Assembly (NCBI GenBank): GCA_015059485.1
Contig: SVAH01000002.1
Coordinates: 62,001-126,000 of the forward strand
Reading direction: 5' to 3'
Source: Bacillota bacterium
GTDB taxonomy: Bacteria > Bacillota_I > Bacilli_A > RF39 > UBA660
Length of the DNA stretch: 64,000 nt
Position 1 is the stretch's first letter. Each line of letters starts with the position of its first letter. Shown in pieces: positions 3,815-14,608 of this stretch. A program made the position numbers and the translations under genes. The notes beneath the pieces were generated by a model. That model was not told the DNA's origin. It saw only the letters and a list, made by a program, of their open reading frames with translations, and did no database searches.

Positions 3815-5293
3815 ATGAAAAAAAGTTTTAAAACAATGTTTACTTTTGTAATGGTTATTGCAGCACTTGTACCATTTATAAAGGTAAATGCATCTGAAGA
3901 AAAAGCAATTGGAACTACAGAGGCTAAGATAAAAGGTACTAATTATGAAATAGATGTTGATCATTCAAAAATTACCCTTGATTCTAACGCTAATGTAGAA
4001 CTTACTGGTAATGCAGATAATTATTTTATAAATGTAAAAGAAAATGCTACTAACGTAACTATTACATTAAATAATTATAGTGTTTCTACTGGTGGATGGA
4101 GAAATGCTATTAACTTGAATAGTGGTAGTAGCATAAAAGTTATTCTAGTTGGTAAAAATAGTATTACAGTTGGAAATGAAGCATCAGCAATTAGAGTAAT
4201 AGAGGGAACTTCTTTAGTTATTGAAGGAAGTGGAAAACTAACAGCAAAAATTTCAAATGGTGGTTCAGCTGCTAGTAGTGCTGTAATAGGTAGTCAATAT
4301 GATCTTAACTGTGGTGATATAACTATAAATGGTGGTACTATCATAACAGAATATGAAGGTGGTGGTACTCCATCAGGAATTGGTACTGGCGATTGGTACT
4401 CCAATGAAGGCGACGTAAAAGGTAATATTACTATTAATGGTGGTAATATTACTACTTCTGTACTTGGAAGTGCTAGAGGTGGAAGTGTAATGAATATAGG
4501 CGGTAATGGTAATGCTATTATTTACACAGAACTAGTTGATGGAACACTAAACGAATTTAATGGAATTATATTTGATACAAATAATAATACTTCTGAAGTA
4601 ATGGGAAATGTAACTATTTCTGAAGATTTATCTATTCCTGCAAATTATACTTTAACTATTAGTGCAGATTCATCTTTAACTATTTCTGAAGGTGTTACTT
4701 TAACAAATGAAGGTGAAATAGAAAATTTAGGATCTATCATGAATAATGGTAATATACAAAATGAAGGTACATTAACTAATACTGGTAGTTTAAATTCAGA
4801 TACAGAAATTGAAGGAGTTACTGGTAATACTATTAACCCTGCATCATATGAATATCTTGAAGGAACTAATTTAAAATTTATAAAAGATGAAGATAAAACA
4901 TTAACATTTAGAATAAATGCAGACTATAGCTTATTTGAAAATGGCGGAAAAGTTTATGTTAATGATAAATTATTAGATGAAAAAGATTATACTTCTAAAT
5001 CTGGTAGTACTATTATAAAACTGGATGAACAATATATGAATTCATTAAATACAGGAAGTTATGTATTAAAAGTAATATTCAATAATAAAGCTGAAGCTAA
5101 AACAACATTTACTGTTGAAAAGAAAAAAGAAGAAGAAAAAACTGCTACAGTTAAAACAACTAATGAAACTACTGCTTCTTCAAAAATAGAAAATCCTAAA
5201 ACAAGTGATAAAATCATAATATATCTTTCACTATTAGGATTAAGTATTATCGGACTTATTGGAATGCATTTTAAAAAGAAATTATTTAACTAG
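3815..5293 (+). CDS. Secreted, wall- or membrane-anchored beta-helix-like surface protein with sortase-type tail
   Basis: 492 residues. A signal peptide (to about residue 27, VNASEE) is followed by a long repetitive beta-rich region of strands such as ITINGG and LNSGSS, resembling the carbohydrate-binding-like (Cthe_2159/DUF4353-type) parallel beta-helix. A run of repeated short turns rich in NEG, NNG and NTG comes next, then a small beta domain. The C terminus reads NPKTSD, a hydrophobic helix and a KKK tail, an arrangement like sortase substrates with an atypical motif. AGGAGG lies just before the ATG, and tandem TATAAT-like boxes lie near 3783 and 3795. It is likely an adhesin or glycan-binding protein. 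No sortase is in the window. Confidence 0.65.
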   Translation: MKKSFKTMFTFVMVIAALVPFIKVNASEEKAIGTTEAKIKGTNYEIDVDHSKITLDSNANVELTGNADNYFINVKENATNVTITLNNYSVSTGGWRNAINLNSGSSIKVILVGKNSITVGNEASAIRVIEGTSLVIEGSGKLTAKISNGGSAASSAVIGSQYDLNCGDITINGGTIITEYEGGGTPSGIGTGDWYSNEGDVKGNITINGGNITTSVLGSARGGSVMNIGGNGNAIIYTELVDGTLNEFNGIIFDTNNNTSEVMGNVTISEDLSIPANYTLTISADSSLTISEGVTLTNEGEIENLGSIMNNGNIQNEGTLTNTGSLNSDTEIEGVTGNTINPASYEYLEGTNLKFIKDEDKTLTFRINADYSLFENGGKVYVNDKLLDEKDYTSKSGSTIIKLDEQYMNSLNTGSYVLKVIFNNKAEAKTTFTVEKKKEEEKTATVKTTNETTASSKIENPKTSDKIIIYLSLLGLSIIGLIGMHFKKKLFN

Positions 5294-8235: not shown

Positions 8236-9273
8236 CTATTTTTTCGGAAATAATATATCAGTAGTAAGAACAATAAACAAGAATACAATTATTAATCCAA
8301 TATAAATTATTCCAGCATATGTTGTATCACCTAGTGCATATAGAATTGATACAGCTGCGAAAAGTGCTTCTATAAAATATATAATTAATAATGATGTTTT
8401 TGTTGAAAAATTCATTTTTAATAATTGATGATGAAAATGACTTTTATCTGGTGTTGTTGGATTTTGCTTTTTCAATGTCCTTCTAATCACTGCAAAGGCT
8501 ACATCTAAAAGCGGTATACCTAAAATACATACTGGTATAATTAAAGATGTGAACGTTGCTGTTTTAAATCCTAATAGGGATATTACAGCAATAATGAAAC
8601 CTAAGAATTGACTTCCTGTATCTCCAAGATAAATAATAGCTGGAGGAAAATTATATACTAAAAATCCCAATGTAGATCCTAACATAATCAATGATAATAT
8701 AACATCTAACCCATCAGACCTTTTCATCATAAATGATATTATAGCGATTGTTAAAAAATATATTGAACTAATGCCACCTGCTAAGCCATCAAGTCCATCC
8801 GTAAAATTGATAGCATTTGTTATAGTAACAATAAATAGCACTGTTATTATATAATTCCAAGGTTGTGGAAAATAAAGATATTTTCCAAATAAAGTTACGT
8901 CATTAAGAACTATATTACCATAAAAAACTATAATTGAAGCTGCAACTAATTGAACAATTAAACGATATTTTGCTTTAACAGGATTAATACAATCTACCAT
9001 CCCGAAAATAACAAGTAAAAAACTGCCCATAAGTATTGATAACATTTGTAATGATTGATTAGCATATAACATATACCCTAACATAAACGAGAAAAATATT
9101 GCAAGTCCCCCTAATGTGGGCATAGCTACTTTATTTACTCTTCTAGCATTTGGCTTATCAAGAGCATTTACATGAATAGCTACCTTTCTCATAATAGGTA
9201 CAAGTATCAAACTAGATATAAATGTTACAAGAACTATAACAAATATATTGTAACCATTTACTTCATAATTCAT
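8236..9273 (-). CDS. tagO: Undecaprenyl-phosphate N-acetylhexosamine-1-phosphate transferase (TagO/WecA/MraY family)
   Basis: 345 residues, about ten membrane helices. The family's catalytic and binding motifs are visible: NAINFTDGLDGLAGG, YLGDTGSQFLGF, and the cytoplasmic His loop SHFHHQLLKM. These enzymes attach a GlcNAc-1-phosphate-type unit to undecaprenyl phosphate, starting wall teichoic acid or other surface polymer synthesis. The downstream GT4, Alg14/13-like and GtrA genes fit a single lipid-linked glycan pathway, and an LCP ligase lies nearby. The gene symbol reflects family similarity; the exact sugar is unknown. Confidence 0.85.
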   Translation of the reverse strand: MNYEVNGYNIFVIVLVTFISSLILVPIMRKVAIHVNALDKPNARRVNKVAMPTLGGLAIFFSFMLGYMLYANQSLQMLSILMGSFLLVIFGMVDCINPVKAKYRLIVQLVAASIIVFYGNIVLNDVTLFGKYLYFPQPWNYIITVLFIVTITNAINFTDGLDGLAGGISSIYFLTIAIISFMMKRSDGLDVILSLIMLGSTLGFLVYNFPPAIIYLGDTGSQFLGFIIAVISLLGFKTATFTSLIIPVCILGIPLLDVAFAVIRRTLKKQNPTTPDKSHFHHQLLKMNFSTKTSLLIIYFIEALFAAVSILYALGDTTYAGIIYIGLIIVFLFIVLTTDILFPKK

Positions 9274-9315: not shown

Positions 9316-9352
9316 GAAAAAAAAGAAGAAAAATGTATTATTTTCTTCTTTT
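9316..9352 (-). terminator. Intrinsic terminator of the cohesin/dockerin operon
   Basis: AAAAGAAGAAAA (9321-9332) pairs with TTTTCTTCTTTT just inside the 3' end of the cohesin-like gene. A T-rich run follows on the minus strand. Confidence 0.6.
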
Positions 9353-10699
9353 TGATTTGTTTTTATTTTCTAATTCTTCTTTCTTTTCTATTTCAGATTC
9401 TACAGCTATTTCTAATTTAGACTCTTTAATTTTTCTTTTTCTTTTAGCAGATACTATTCTTGATAAAATAAAACATATAAATATAAGTATTAAACATCCA
9501 CTAAATGCATATACTGCATATTTATAATTTTGAATTTGTTTTTCATATTTTTCTACTTGCTGATCATTAAATCTTTGAAAAGTATTTTCTTTTTCATCAT
9601 ATAAGTAATAAGATTCTTCACCTGTTTCAATGTTTTTACCATATACTACAAAAAAATCTTCATTACCATATTTATATGCTTCAACTTCTACATCATTAAT
9701 AGTAATAGTAGTTTTTTCATATCCCTTTAACTCTTTTAATTCTAATAAATAGATAGTTAAGTTATTTGAAGTGAAATCTTGATAAATACTATAATCTCCA
9801 TCATTATATATAGCAAGTTTGACATTTCCCTCTGAATCTTTTATTCCAACTAATGTAATTCCTAAAACATCATTTTTAAATGCAGGAACTTCCACTTCAT
9901 CAATTGTAATTGTAGTCTCTTCAAAACCTTTAGGTTTATTTTCAATATTATCTGCTCTTTTAACAACATTATAATCTACACCATTTATAGTTACTTCTAT
10001 CGGATTAACATCCTCTACTGTTACTACTAATTTATATGTTTTTGAACTTCCATTTTGGGCAGTAACTACGATTTCAAAAGGATTGGCTCCTTCTTTGACT
10101 TCTTTTTCACCAGATCCTTCAATAGATGCTGTTGAATCTTCTTTTGCAGCAATAATATTTATTTTATCAACAGTTGACGGAACAATTGCTGTATATTCTA
10201 AAGTATCTTTATTAAATTCTGGAGATATTTCATACCCTTCAATTTCTAGTTTTTTCAAATTATTATTTTTACTATAAGTTGCTTCAAGTTCAGCCTGTGT
10301 CATTATTTTAATTGATGCATTACCTGTTGATACAGACATCTGTGATTCATCAATCGCATAAACTAAATAACTTCCAATATTTATTGAAGCATTTCCATTT
10401 TTTAATACTTGAAATTTTAAAGTATAGCTTTTACTTTTAACTCCTGATGCTGATGTTGTGTAATCTGCCACCGAAGTCGTTCCCCCTACAAGTTTCAATT
10501 TTGAATTGTCATAATTAACGTTAAATTGCCATGATCCCATTGGAGTTCCAGAAGATACAGTAACTGTTGCGGTTATAGTATTTCCAACAACCGCTTTACC
10601 ACTTGTTGATACATTAATAGATGCACTTGCTGCATTTACTTTTAATGGTATTAAAATAAGTACTACCAACAATATCATTAAACTTTTTATTCTTTTCAT
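9338..10699 (-). CDS. Membrane-anchored protein with cohesin-like domain and cadherin-like beta-sandwich
   Basis: 453 residues. A signal peptide ends near VNAAS. Residues about 25-135 look like a cohesin/anchoring domain (VGNTITATVTVSSG, WQFNVNYDNSKLKLVGG, LKFQVLKNG). A cadherin-like beta-sandwich follows (SPEFNKDTLEYTAIVP, TAQNGSSKTYKLVV), then two related beta segments (VTINGVDYNVVK, TTITINDVEVEAYK). Near residue 400 is one membrane helix with a KRKRK cytoplasmic tail. The start after GAGGT at 10699 is chosen over an ATG 12 bp upstream. The adjacent upstream gene ends in a dockerin, so this protein is a probable surface receptor for that enzyme. Confidence 0.75.
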   Translation of the reverse strand: MKRIKSLMILLVVLILIPLKVNAASASINVSTSGKAVVGNTITATVTVSSGTPMGSWQFNVNYDNSKLKLVGGTTSVADYTTSASGVKSKSYTLKFQVLKNGNASINIGSYLVYAIDESQMSVSTGNASIKIMTQAELEATYSKNNNLKKLEIEGYEISPEFNKDTLEYTAIVPSTVDKINIIAAKEDSTASIEGSGEKEVKEGANPFEIVVTAQNGSSKTYKLVVTVEDVNPIEVTINGVDYNVVKRADNIENKPKGFEETTITIDEVEVPAFKNDVLGITLVGIKDSEGNVKLAIYNDGDYSIYQDFTSNNLTIYLLELKELKGYEKTTITINDVEVEAYKYGNEDFFVVYGKNIETGEESYYLYDEKENTFQRFNDQQVEKYEKQIQNYKYAVYAFSGCLILIFICFILSRIVSAKRKRKIKESKLEIAVESEIEKKEELENKNKSKRRK

Positions 10700-10713
10700 T
10701 ATATACCTCATTT

Positions 10714-12507
10714 CTACTGTTCTATATTTCCGCTACCTAATATTTGTTTTTGAACTTTTAACAAATCTAGTGCATTAACCTTTCCATCCTTTGATGCATC
10801 AGCTGCTGTTTTATATGAACCATTTAAACCAGATGTACCAAGAATATCTTTTTGAATCTTCAATAAATCTAGTGCATTAATTTGTCCATCTCCTGAAGCA
10901 TCTCCATATACAACAGCAATTAATGTTTCGTTTGATGAACCATTAATATTTATTCTATAGCCAGTTCCTATAACACCATCAACTTTTTGACCGTTAGCAT
11001 TTGTTATAGTCACATTGCCATCGCCAGCTATTCCTTGTAATGCATTTTTTATATCATTAACACTAGTTCCAGGATTTATATGTGACATATAGCCACTACT
11101 ATAACTAAATCCAGAATTATTTACTATTGCATCAACACTAGGTTTTTGATTAGATGTGCTATTTGAATTATTTGAAGATATATTTTCAGCTAAAGAACTA
11201 GTTGAATTCATTCCTGAAAAAACAGGTATAATAAATTCAAAATTTGCTCCTAATAAGCCAGCATCTCTATATGCATTATAACTAATTTTTGACTCACTAA
11301 CAGGAGCTGCTATATTAGTCATGTATTGATTAACATATCTTGAAGTAGCTGTATTTGGGAATATATTAAACTTTTGAAAATATATTGTATTTTGTCCAGC
11401 GTTAATATATCTGTTTTTTAAAAAGTTTGTTCCGCCAACAATTGATGTAACTCTATCTTCTGCTTGGTTTCCTGTTCCACCCCATTTATGATTATATGCA
11501 TAAATTAAAGCTTTTTCGGTAACATTACTTCCATCTGTTGCATTTATATTAAAGAAATTATAATAATTATCAAGTGAATTTCCATTATATGTTTTTGAAG
11601 GATATCTAGTAGTATAATTTCCAGATACACATGAATATAATTGTCCTGAGTATTCACCACTTGTCAATTTAGCGTTTCCTAATTCTTGTTTAATTCTTGT
11701 TGATATAGCGGCTTCATTTACATTAGTTTGTTCAGAAGCACGTCTTATATAATTTGGTAAATCCGGAATTTGATTTACTAAAAAACTATTACCAAATATT
11801 TTTGATGATACTGTTTGATATTGATCATGTGAAATATTAAAACTAGAATCTTGTTTTTCAAACATAAATATATTAACTTCATTCAAAAAATTTCTAGGAT
11901 CCATATAATATCTAACAGCTTTTTCACTAACTGGATAATAACCTGAATCTGTTGCTTTAGTACAACTTGTATCTTTCATTGAATCATCTTTTGTTGATAT
12001 TGTGTTAGAACCACAGCTTGCCTCAGCTGCAACAGACATATTCCAATCTATAGTATTTCCACTAGAGTCTGTTTTTTTAGCAACAAATGTCCAATTAGGA
12101 TGAGCACTTTTTATTTGACATAAACCATTCCAATAACTTGAAGGAAATCCTGCTTGTTGAAGTGATACCTCACAATCATTAGTCGGTGTTTTTCCATCAC
12201 TATCATCCGAATTATTTATTTCATATACTTTTAAATAATTTGAACAAACATAACCAGTATTACCATTATAATTTACTTTATACCATCCATTTGTACAAGC
12301 AGCATTTGGTGAAACAATTTGATTATCAGGCATATTAAATATTTCTCCAGAAGAAGCAAGTTTGTAGTAGTCAGTTGAATCAACACTTTTTCTTACCCTG
12401 ACACCAGCTCCTGAAATAACACCATAATAACTTGAAGCATCAACTGTGAAAGGTGCTAAGCATATAACTAATAATAATAATAACATTGTTCTTTTAAATA
12501 ATTTCAT
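10714..12507 (-). CDS. Secreted peptidoglycan N-acetylglucosaminidase with SH3b and C-terminal type I dockerin
   Basis: 597 residues. A signal peptide (to about 25), a bacterial SH3 domain (about 27-95, GVRVRK..GWYKVNY..GYVCSNYL) and a GH73-like glucosaminidase region (about 135-425) come first. Visible elements of that region are YYMDPRNFLNE, SRIKQELG-like TRIKQELGNA, and YNHKWGG. A linker follows, then a dockerin at about 535-590 with two calcium loops, GDASGDGQINALDLL and ADASKDGKVNALDLL. It cuts GlcNAc linkages in peptidoglycan outside the cell. The dockerin probably docks to the cohesin-like product of the next gene, only about 15 bp downstream. A wall hydrolase held by a dockerin is unusual; most dockerin enzymes degrade plant polymers. 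Confidence 0.85.
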   Translation of the reverse strand: MKLFKRTMLLLLLVICLAPFTVDASSYYGVISGAGVRVRKSVDSTDYYKLASSGEIFNMPDNQIVSPNAACTNGWYKVNYNGNTGYVCSNYLKVYEINNSDDSDGKTPTNDCEVSLQQAGFPSSYWNGLCQIKSAHPNWTFVAKKTDSSGNTIDWNMSVAAEASCGSNTISTKDDSMKDTSCTKATDSGYYPVSEKAVRYYMDPRNFLNEVNIFMFEKQDSSFNISHDQYQTVSSKIFGNSFLVNQIPDLPNYIRRASEQTNVNEAAISTRIKQELGNAKLTSGEYSGQLYSCVSGNYTTRYPSKTYNGNSLDNYYNFFNINATDGSNVTEKALIYAYNHKWGGTGNQAEDRVTSIVGGTNFLKNRYINAGQNTIYFQKFNIFPNTATSRYVNQYMTNIAAPVSESKISYNAYRDAGLLGANFEFIIPVFSGMNSTSSLAENISSNNSNSTSNQKPSVDAIVNNSGFSYSSGYMSHINPGTSVNDIKNALQGIAGDGNVTITNANGQKVDGVIGTGYRININGSSNETLIAVVYGDASGDGQINALDLLKIQKDILGTSGLNGSYKTAADASKDGKVNALDLLKVQKQILGSGNIEQ

Positions 12508-12670
12508 GCTTTCACTACCTTTCCATATTAATTAAATTATACCATTATTCTAAAAAAAACGACACAATTATCAACATAATATGTGTAAAAATGATGTAAA
12601 ATAATTAACAAGTATCAATTATTGAGTTTTTATGATATAATTTTATAGATTATAAAAAGGAGTGAACGAT

Positions 12671-14608
12671 TTGAAAGTATTACTACACAAACTTAAAAAA
12701 TGCAATAAAATACTGTTATCTTTATTTATAATAACATTTATTTTATATACAACAAGTTTAGTGTTTATATTTAAAAGTATATTATCATTAGAAGGAATAG
12801 AAACTGTATTAAGAATTATTTTTATAGTAATTTTTAGTTTATGGTTAATAATCTATTTAATATGGAATTTGGTAAATTTAATATTAAAAAGAAATAAGAC
12901 AATTATAATAACAACAATACTAACTATAATTATTTCAGGCGGTTTTATATATGCATCTTTAATTATAAATAAACTATATGGAAGTATTACAAACATGGCC
13001 GAAGCTAAATATACTGTATATACTACTAATTTAATATCACTTAATAGTACAGACACTATAAACAAAGATGATAAACTGGGGATGATTAAAAGTAAAGATG
13101 ATATTGAAGGAAATATACTTGCAAAAGAATTAATAAAAAAAGAAAAGTTAAAAAATAAAATTGAATATTATGATGATTACTATTCTTTATTAAATGCATT
13201 ATATAATAAAGATGTTAGTGGTGTTTTTGTTTCAGACAATTATGTTATTTTATTTTCGTCTGAAGAAAAATTTAAAGATATAGCAACAGACACTCATGTA
13301 TTGCATGAGTATTCAAAAAAGATTGAAAATAAAAATAATAAAAATAAAAAAATAAAAAGTTTAACAGAACCTTTTTCTATATTACTAATGGGAGTTGATT
13401 CAGAAAAAGATGGCTTAAATGCAAATGCAGCTTTCAATGGTGATACATTGATATTAATAACATTCAATCCTAAAACATTAACAGCAACGATGTTTAGTAT
13501 GCCAAGAGATATATATGTTCCAATTGCTTGTAATAATAATAGATATAATAAAATAAATTCTTCTGCAGCATATGGAACTGACTGCGTTGTTAATACAGTA
13601 TCAAAATTAACAGATATAAAAATTGATTATCATGCAAAGATTAACTTTAATGGATTTATTGATCTTGTTGATGCTCTTGGTGGGGTTGATGTAGATGTTG
13701 AACAACCAGATTATGATTACTATGTAAAAGTACATGGTAAAGGCAAATTATGTGAAAGTAACCAATATAGAGAATCAGATGAAAAAAATCTTGTTTGTAT
13801 GGATACTGGAATGCAACATTTAAACGGAAAACAAGCTCTTGCATATGCACGTAATAGACATGGATTTATTCAAAGTGACATAGCTCGTAATAGACATCAG
13901 CAACAAATAGTTGAAGCAATTGCTAAAAAAACATCTACTATTAAATCATTTGAAGATTTCGAAAAAATTCTTGATGCTATTACAAATAATATAGCAACTA
14001 ATATGAATAAAAATCAAATATTATCTTTCTATAATGTATTAAAAGATATGCTTGCTAATTCAAAAAATAATTCAGAATTTGTAACGATTAAAAAAACATA
14101 TTTAGAGACATATTCATTACCAGTTTACTTACAATATGCTTATATGTATACTTCTGCTTTAGGCTATTATTCTGGAAGCTTAGATGCAATTAAAGATTTA
14201 ATGAAAACTAACTTAGAATTAAAGAAAAAGGAAATTGTTAAATCATTTAATTATAAATATGGAGAAAACTATGAGGCAAATGCAACAGGTAAAGGAATAA
14301 CATCTGGTGGTAAACTTGAACTAGTTCCAAATTTTATTGGTCAATCAGAAACAAGTGCAAGAAATTGGGCTTCAAATAATGGAATAAATATTGAAGTTGT
14401 AGGCAGTGGACCAACAATCATTAATCAAAGCGTTCCTGCATCAACACTTGCTAAAAGTATATCATCTATAACAGTTGAACTTGGTGGTGGTCAAAATCAA
14501 CAACCAACAAATGAAATTAGTGATGATAATCAAGAAGAAGTGGTTGAGCAATCAAATGAAGTAGTAGAAACAACTACTACTACTGAAATAGAAGATAATT
14601 TAGAATAA
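12671..14608 (+). CDS. LytR-CpsA-Psr (LCP) family glycopolymer ligase with PASTA-like tail
   Basis: 645 residues from a TTG at 12671, which sits 8 nt after AAGGAG; a GTG at 12662 overlaps that site. Three N-terminal membrane helices (to about 105), a linker and the LCP domain (about 235-430) follow. Catalytic and lipid-binding residues are visible in NGDTLILI, MFSMPRDIYVP, and YARNRHGF..DIARNRHQQ. The C-terminal PASTA-like domain (PNFIGQSETSARNWA, to GGGQN) and an acidic Thr/Glu tail are outside the membrane. LCP enzymes move undecaprenyl-linked polymers onto peptidoglycan, fitting the TagO-type cluster at 5.7-9.3 kb. A PASTA-type tail on an LCP protein is uncommon. Confidence 0.85.
   Translation: MKVLLHKLKKCNKILLSLFIITFILYTTSLVFIFKSILSLEGIETVLRIIFIVIFSLWLIIYLIWNLVNLILKRNKTIIITTILTIIISGGFIYASLIINKLYGSITNMAEAKYTVYTTNLISLNSTDTINKDDKLGMIKSKDDIEGNILAKELIKKEKLKNKIEYYDDYYSLLNALYNKDVSGVFVSDNYVILFSSEEKFKDIATDTHVLHEYSKKIENKNNKNKKIKSLTEPFSILLMGVDSEKDGLNANAAFNGDTLILITFNPKTLTATMFSMPRDIYVPIACNNNRYNKINSSAAYGTDCVVNTVSKLTDIKIDYHAKINFNGFIDLVDALGGVDVDVEQPDYDYYVKVHGKGKLCESNQYRESDEKNLVCMDTGMQHLNGKQALAYARNRHGFIQSDIARNRHQQQIVEAIAKKTSTIKSFEDFEKILDAITNNIATNMNKNQILSFYNVLKDMLANSKNNSEFVTIKKTYLETYSLPVYLQYAYMYTSALGYYSGSLDAIKDLMKTNLELKKKEIVKSFNYKYGENYEANATGKGITSGGKLELVPNFIGQSETSARNWASNNGINIEVVGSGPTIINQSVPASTLAKSISSITVELGGGQNQQPTNEISDDNQEEVVEQSNEVVETTTTTEIEDNLE

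Follow-up and report, generated by a model that had tools for sequence, protein, structure and literature searches.

The window analysed here, a stretch of 64,000 nucleotides, carries on its minus strand two adjacent genes for a hydrolase and its candidate partner. Gene 1 (10714..12507, minus strand, 597 aa) encodes a secreted SH3-GH73 N-acetylglucosaminidase with a C-terminal dockerin, and gene 2 (9338..10699, minus strand) a membrane anchor. A TagO/MraY-like glycosyltransferase family 4 gene lies downstream of them (8236..9273, minus strand; PF00953, 125 bits), and a divergent LCP-PASTA gene is found on their other side (12662..14608, plus strand; PF03816, 142 bits). These LCP and TagO-type neighbours are envelope genes, whose relatives we found near 37 and 17, respectively, of 75 pairs.

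The gene 1 product consists of a signal peptide, which is its sole transmembrane stretch, followed by an SH3 domain, the catalytic domain and the dockerin. The Pfam glucosaminidase family PF01832 gives no match to this protein; a profile of 59 homologues matches SagB of S. aureus (6u0o, E 1.9e-34) as well as AtlA-gl and AtlE. The predicted catalytic glutamate, E275 (codon 11683..11685, minus strand), is invariant in 59 of 59 homologues and is the positional match to SagB Glu155. Based on its sequence, the enzyme is a GH73 of the SagB/AtlA subfamily and a predicted GlcNAc-MurNAc hydrolase, and both the SagB match and the invariant glutamate bear out the original prediction of a glucosaminidase.

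The dockerin is a type I domain (residues 534-590; 10738..10908, minus strand) that matches PF00404 over the entire profile (51.5 bits, E 1.2e-13, positions 1-57 of 57, cut-off 22.9). As had been proposed, it has two good calcium loops: both are complete, with Asp at positions 1, 5 and 12, and these residues are invariant or almost so in the homologue alignment. Its recognition code, A-L / Q-K, is identical across the two repeats.

Gene 2 is listed as an open reading frame starting at 10711. From the sequence, however, its start is probably the second ATG, at 10699, which is preceded by GAGG and encodes a Met invariant across the anchor alignment. The intergenic gap would therefore be 14 nt (10700..10713, minus strand, including the GAGG ribosome-binding site) and not 2. 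The location of both genes within 9338-12507 had been correctly foreseen, with the start of gene 2 probably to be moved from 10711 to 10699. The encoded protein comprises a signal peptide, a cohesin domain (residues 29-139 of the frame from 10711; 10295..10627, minus strand), a cadherin-like β-sandwich that is a probable spacer (PF12733, residues 153-231; 10019..10255, minus strand; 43.4 bits), a conserved region, a transmembrane helix and a basic tail. The conserved region (residues 236-390, about 150 residues), which extends from the cadherin-like domain to the membrane, has no Pfam name.

The C-terminal membrane helix that had been noted is indeed present and is the only one (residues 399-417; 9461..9517, minus strand); KRKRK follows it, and the basic cytoplasmic tail runs to 9341. 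One such helix was found in all of 123 complete anchors, and 121 of the 123 have a net positive tail (median length 56 residues). None of the 123 carries an LPxT-like motif, and the anchors fall outside the sortase-anchored class, with its LPxTG-like motif and short tail. We also considered the tether as a replacement for sortase and dropped the idea; the genome has six sortase-like genes. Elsewhere in the window, a gene at 3815-5293 (plus strand) encodes a secreted protein with a sortase-type signal, ending in NPKTSD, a transmembrane segment and a basic tail.

The N-terminal domain of the anchor, when isolated, matches PF00963 with 31.3 bits (cut-off 24.1, E 2.6e-7), a partial match over positions 8-69 of 139, in agreement with the cohesin-like domain proposed for this gene. 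PF00963 is not listed in the scan of the whole gene 2 protein, so annotation pipelines likely miss such cohesins too. A profile search of the PDB returned cohesins at the top. The AlphaFold2 model of residues 27-235, built on 60 sequences, reached a pLDDT of 97.4, and Foldseek matched it best to type II cohesins and to the cohesin of C. perfringens GH84C (TMt 0.67 and 3.4 Å for 2jh2, a cohesin-like module of that species; TMt 0.63 for 2xdh). The model of a relative matched the C. perfringens cohesin 2vo8 with a TM of 0.72, and 4dh2 (Coh-OlpC) was likewise a top fold match. Judged by profile and model, the domain is a real cohesin: its predicted fold is the cohesin jelly-roll β sandwich, and the failure to fold as a cohesin that had been named as grounds for abandoning the idea did not appear.

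The pair is widespread. PF00404 was found in 75 of 98 genomes sampled from the family, almost all of them different genera, and the dockerin in 59 of 59 partner enzymes. In the 60 family loci that we retrieved, representing about 60 genera, the dockerin enzyme is followed on the same strand by a gene 2 homologue, mostly after 8-20 nt, and the recurrence of this adjacency in so many genera indicates a pairing beyond chance. A contig scan of named genomes, for which a subset of the glucosaminidases served as query since the anchor alignment is too diverse, found the pair adjacent in 76 of 80 related loci, some of them labelled Lachnospiraceae and Clostridia; it also occurs in Vescimonas fastidiosa MM35, an isolate cultured from humans, at NZ_AP023416.1 503342-506849. 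In the order sample the anchor profile matches 162 of 193 genomes, and anchor homologues of full length are present in other families of the class. Outside the family the anchor's partner is another kind of GH73 and once a GH25 lysozyme, so that every partner checked is a peptidoglycan hydrolase (two kinds of GH73, or a GH25 lysozyme); a transmembrane helix of their own is absent from all partner enzymes examined. The locus with the dockerin-bearing lysozyme in place of GH73 (L257, G299:C23:182600-188600) belongs to a genome that has a second pair, on contig C20, with a GH73-like partner (L258). Two dockerin enzyme and anchor pairs also occur on one contig of Clostridia bacterium ABMPRH_42_1 (L200); they differ in recognition code and best cohesin type, as if two orthogonal plugs coexisted.

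The cohesin-dockerin plug is best known from plant-fibre-digesting complexes. We did not find the hallmark of a cellulosome scaffoldin, as there is one cohesin per anchor, and a single cohesin match exceeds the cut-off in this 74%-complete assembly. The search for other dockerin proteins, which had been suggested as a check, brought the number in this assembly to two, and the readable part of neither contains a plant-fibre enzyme domain. The second one (L034, G000:C19:3849-7997, minus strand), on another contig, comprises at least 1,382 aa, with ten cadherin-like repeats and, at its C terminus, a symmetric dockerin whose code differs (LIDAVGxINHY); two tandem anchors of the same general architecture come after it. 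Its apparent length of 25,386 aa was discarded, as it arose from 72,000 N that mask the upstream part and leave 1,382 aa readable. In a few genomes of the family (G044, G051 and G020; L228-L247) there are many further dockerins that are asymmetric and differ in code, which points to additional cohesin-dockerin systems in the lineage. We rejected the extra dockerins retrieved from dockerin-rich relatives as clients of the same anchor, since none has the glucosaminidase's code.

We found that the dockerin and the cohesin diverge together. Across 122 dereplicated dockerin-anchor pairs, their distances correlate with r = 0.765, and the partial Mantel coefficient remains 0.67 (p at floor) once glucosaminidase, cadherin and middle-region distances are removed; the partial correlation of dockerin with cadherin is about 0. 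Shared ancestry was controlled for with 57 species pairs joined by non-overlapping tree paths, which gave a partial r of 0.78 (p <= 5e-5) for dockerin and cohesin and nothing significant for the dockerin against any other region. The window pair is a family-wide, co-diverging module, which goes beyond the original prediction. The excess mutual information that the cohesin shares with the dockerin is roughly three times that of the rest of the anchor, and the top covarying dockerin positions, which were not supplied beforehand, are canonical 10, 11, 13, 15, 17 and 18, that is, known recognition residues. On the anchor side, the strongest covariation falls in the strand SWQFNVNYDNSKLKL (residues 60-74; 10490..10534, minus strand). 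By our own alignment we take residues 60-68 to correspond to cohesin strand 3, which presumably bears contact residues in the 1ohz structure.

The recognition code learnt in the family carried over to other families. When cohesin-type models derived from the family were applied outside it, all seven K-N dockerins went with the K-type cohesin model and all three Q-K/Q-M dockerins with the Q-type; dockerins with other dipeptides had mixed cohesin types, and the cadherin control returned Q for all. The 17-18 dipeptide of the dockerin changed 31 times on the tree. An underpowered binary tree test of these switches, with too few independent pairs, went in the expected direction (3.6 vs 0.5 pairs, p 0.375).

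The two dockerin repeats are alike where contacts are made. At canonical position 17 the repeats agree in every one of the 122 proteins (49% expected), and at positions 10 and 11 they do so in 90% and 85% (27-28% expected); positions 10, 11 and 18 are shared by the repeats in 85-94% of the 122. At the non-contact positions 8 and 16 the identity between repeats is at chance, which argues against a recent duplication. As read from its residues, the dockerin has the symmetric recognition surface that would permit dual binding, and because the same contact residues stand in both repeats, binding in two orientations is probable.

Structure prediction of the complex, another of the checks proposed at the outset, was carried out on relatives of the window pair in which both genes are in frame, so that reading through the stop yields an artificial single chain. 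The dockerin-linker-cohesin chain of L155, modelled by AlphaFold2 together with 11 other such rows, looked docked, with a pLDDT of 87, a pTM of 0.79 and a disordered linker (mostly pLDDT <50). We estimate that two well-folded domains without fixed placement would give a pTM of about 0.55-0.6, and the higher value in the relatives' fusion suggests docking. The co-divergence, the positions involved and this docked-looking model together point to binding of the dockerin to its partner cohesin.

Several known systems are related to this pair. The cellulosomal type I pairs of C. thermocellum and C. cellulolyticum share with it the two-calcium-loop dockerin, recognition at positions 10, 11, 17 and 18, the symmetry of the repeats and a secreted enzyme held on a non-catalytic cohesin protein. 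Unlike them, the window pair lacks a scaffoldin, a CBM and a plant-polysaccharide enzyme, and consists of one enzyme and one cohesin encoded by adjacent genes, the anchor having a membrane helix. The closest solved folds, the non-cellulosomal cohesins of C. perfringens glycoside hydrolases (2w1n, 2jh2, 2vo8), sit on a secreted glycoside hydrolase, whereas the window cohesin sits on a membrane anchor. The C. thermocellum cell-surface dockerins (Coh-OlpC, 4dh2) also join a single enzyme to one cohesin at the cell surface; in our case the enzyme is predicted to cut the bacterial wall. In SagB-SpdC of S. aureus, an enzyme of the same GH73 subfamily is kept at the membrane by another protein, but that partner, SpdC, belongs to the CAAX-protease family and is an integral membrane protein; in its place we find a cohesin anchor and a dockerin.

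The symmetry sets the pair apart. According to PMC5429695, symmetric dockerins are tied to multi-enzyme cellulosomes and single-enzyme tethers bind in a single mode; the same source describes as single-mode both the C. perfringens pairing and the non-cellulosomal dockerins of C. thermocellum, whereas the window dockerin is symmetric, with equal contact residues in both repeats. Since symmetry is usually linked to multi-enzyme cellulosomes, the system is unusual, and the symmetry so strictly kept in what we predict to be a single-enzyme tether is an apparent exception to that literature. In the open-access cohesin/dockerin literature, as far as it was accessible to us, we found no account of a peptidoglycan hydrolase tethered by such a pair.

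Two alternative explanations would question the binding itself. The dockerin and cohesin coding regions touch, forming a contiguous stretch of about 600 bp, and we therefore considered that both may be swapped as one DNA block, so that their co-divergence would reflect recombination and each could bind a third partner; the recurrence of dockerin types over the tree, with the many dipeptide changes described above, would agree with this. However, the signal peptide located within the block follows the dockerin weakly (0.36, or 0.21 with p 0.06 when the cohesin is allowed for), as does the stretch preceding the dockerin, and the dockerin-cohesin correlation is 0.75 once these flanking stretches are allowed for. 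Moreover, the identity between repeats is confined to contact positions and does not embrace the whole domain, and in other families a code is paired with the cohesin type that it has in this one. We thus regard block exchange as quite unlikely. Even less probable, to the point of being hardly credible, is that a generic Ig-like or cadherin-like fold, unable to bind dockerins, makes up the N-terminal domain: PF00963 matches just 13 of 59 anchors scanned as whole proteins, there are weak matches to a chagasin-like family, and some clades have short, divergent versions of the domain, but the isolated domain exceeds the Pfam cut-off, cohesins head both the PDB profile and Foldseek matches, and the co-divergence with the dockerin is strong and specific.

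A further alternative accepts the tether and assigns it to nutrition, the enzyme digesting foreign peptidoglycan at the surface as the minimal, one-enzyme counterpart of a cellulosome. Cohesin-dockerin systems are usually feeding devices, one that degrades mucin was described in 2026 (PMC12997984), and related gut Bacilli are without some precursor-synthesis steps and may need environmental muropeptides (PMC10868615). Against this stand the single enzyme and single cohesin with no scaffold, an anchoring in the membrane and not at the outer surface, the LCP and TagO-type neighbours, and the near-ubiquity of the anchor in the order sample, which suggests a core role. We consider the nutritional role improbable, albeit one to keep in mind. 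The same neighbours, along with SagB, the nearest solved enzyme, which is controlled by a membrane partner and frees nascent peptidoglycan (PMC12272431), lead us to favour action on the cell's own wall over scavenging.

Our preferred reading, which we hold with considerable confidence, is that the pair forms a private, one-to-one, plug-and-socket membrane tether for a peptidoglycan hydrolase, likely to serve remodelling of the cell's own wall. The gene 2 product would be exported, with its C-terminal helix holding it in the membrane and its cohesin displayed outside, lifted on the cadherin-like spacer. The soluble, secreted GH73 glucosaminidase would then plug into this cohesin by its dockerin, probably in a calcium-dependent manner and in either of two orientations. 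Kept in this way on the side of the wall that faces the membrane, the enzyme may trim nascent glycan strands or set them free, as SagB does with SpdC, rather than digest food. The original prediction of a hydrolase held at the surface, and not of a plant-fibre complex, fits the one enzyme, one cohesin and lack of a scaffold, and fits equally the hydrolase partners and envelope-gene neighbours.

On a broader scale, we put forward more tentatively, and with somewhat less than even confidence, that in a large, uncultured lineage of gut Bacilli, and in some Clostridia, one of the core steps of wall synthesis, in which nascent glycan strands are freed or their length is controlled, needs a glucosaminidase held at the membrane by a dedicated, symmetric plug, through tethers that switch and yet stay matched and orthogonal. 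The repeated but matched switching of the recognition code would make these private, orthogonal tethers for own-wall enzymes and, as such, a natural library of orthogonal connectors. Duplicated contact residues in a one-enzyme tether would speak against the account of dual binding as a response to crowded multi-enzyme complexes (PMC5429695). Databases now place such enzymes in polysaccharide catabolism. Altogether, these findings would recast cohesin-dockerin pairing, so far seen as a means of feeding in fibre degraders, as apparently routine envelope machinery in a common, uncultured gut lineage.
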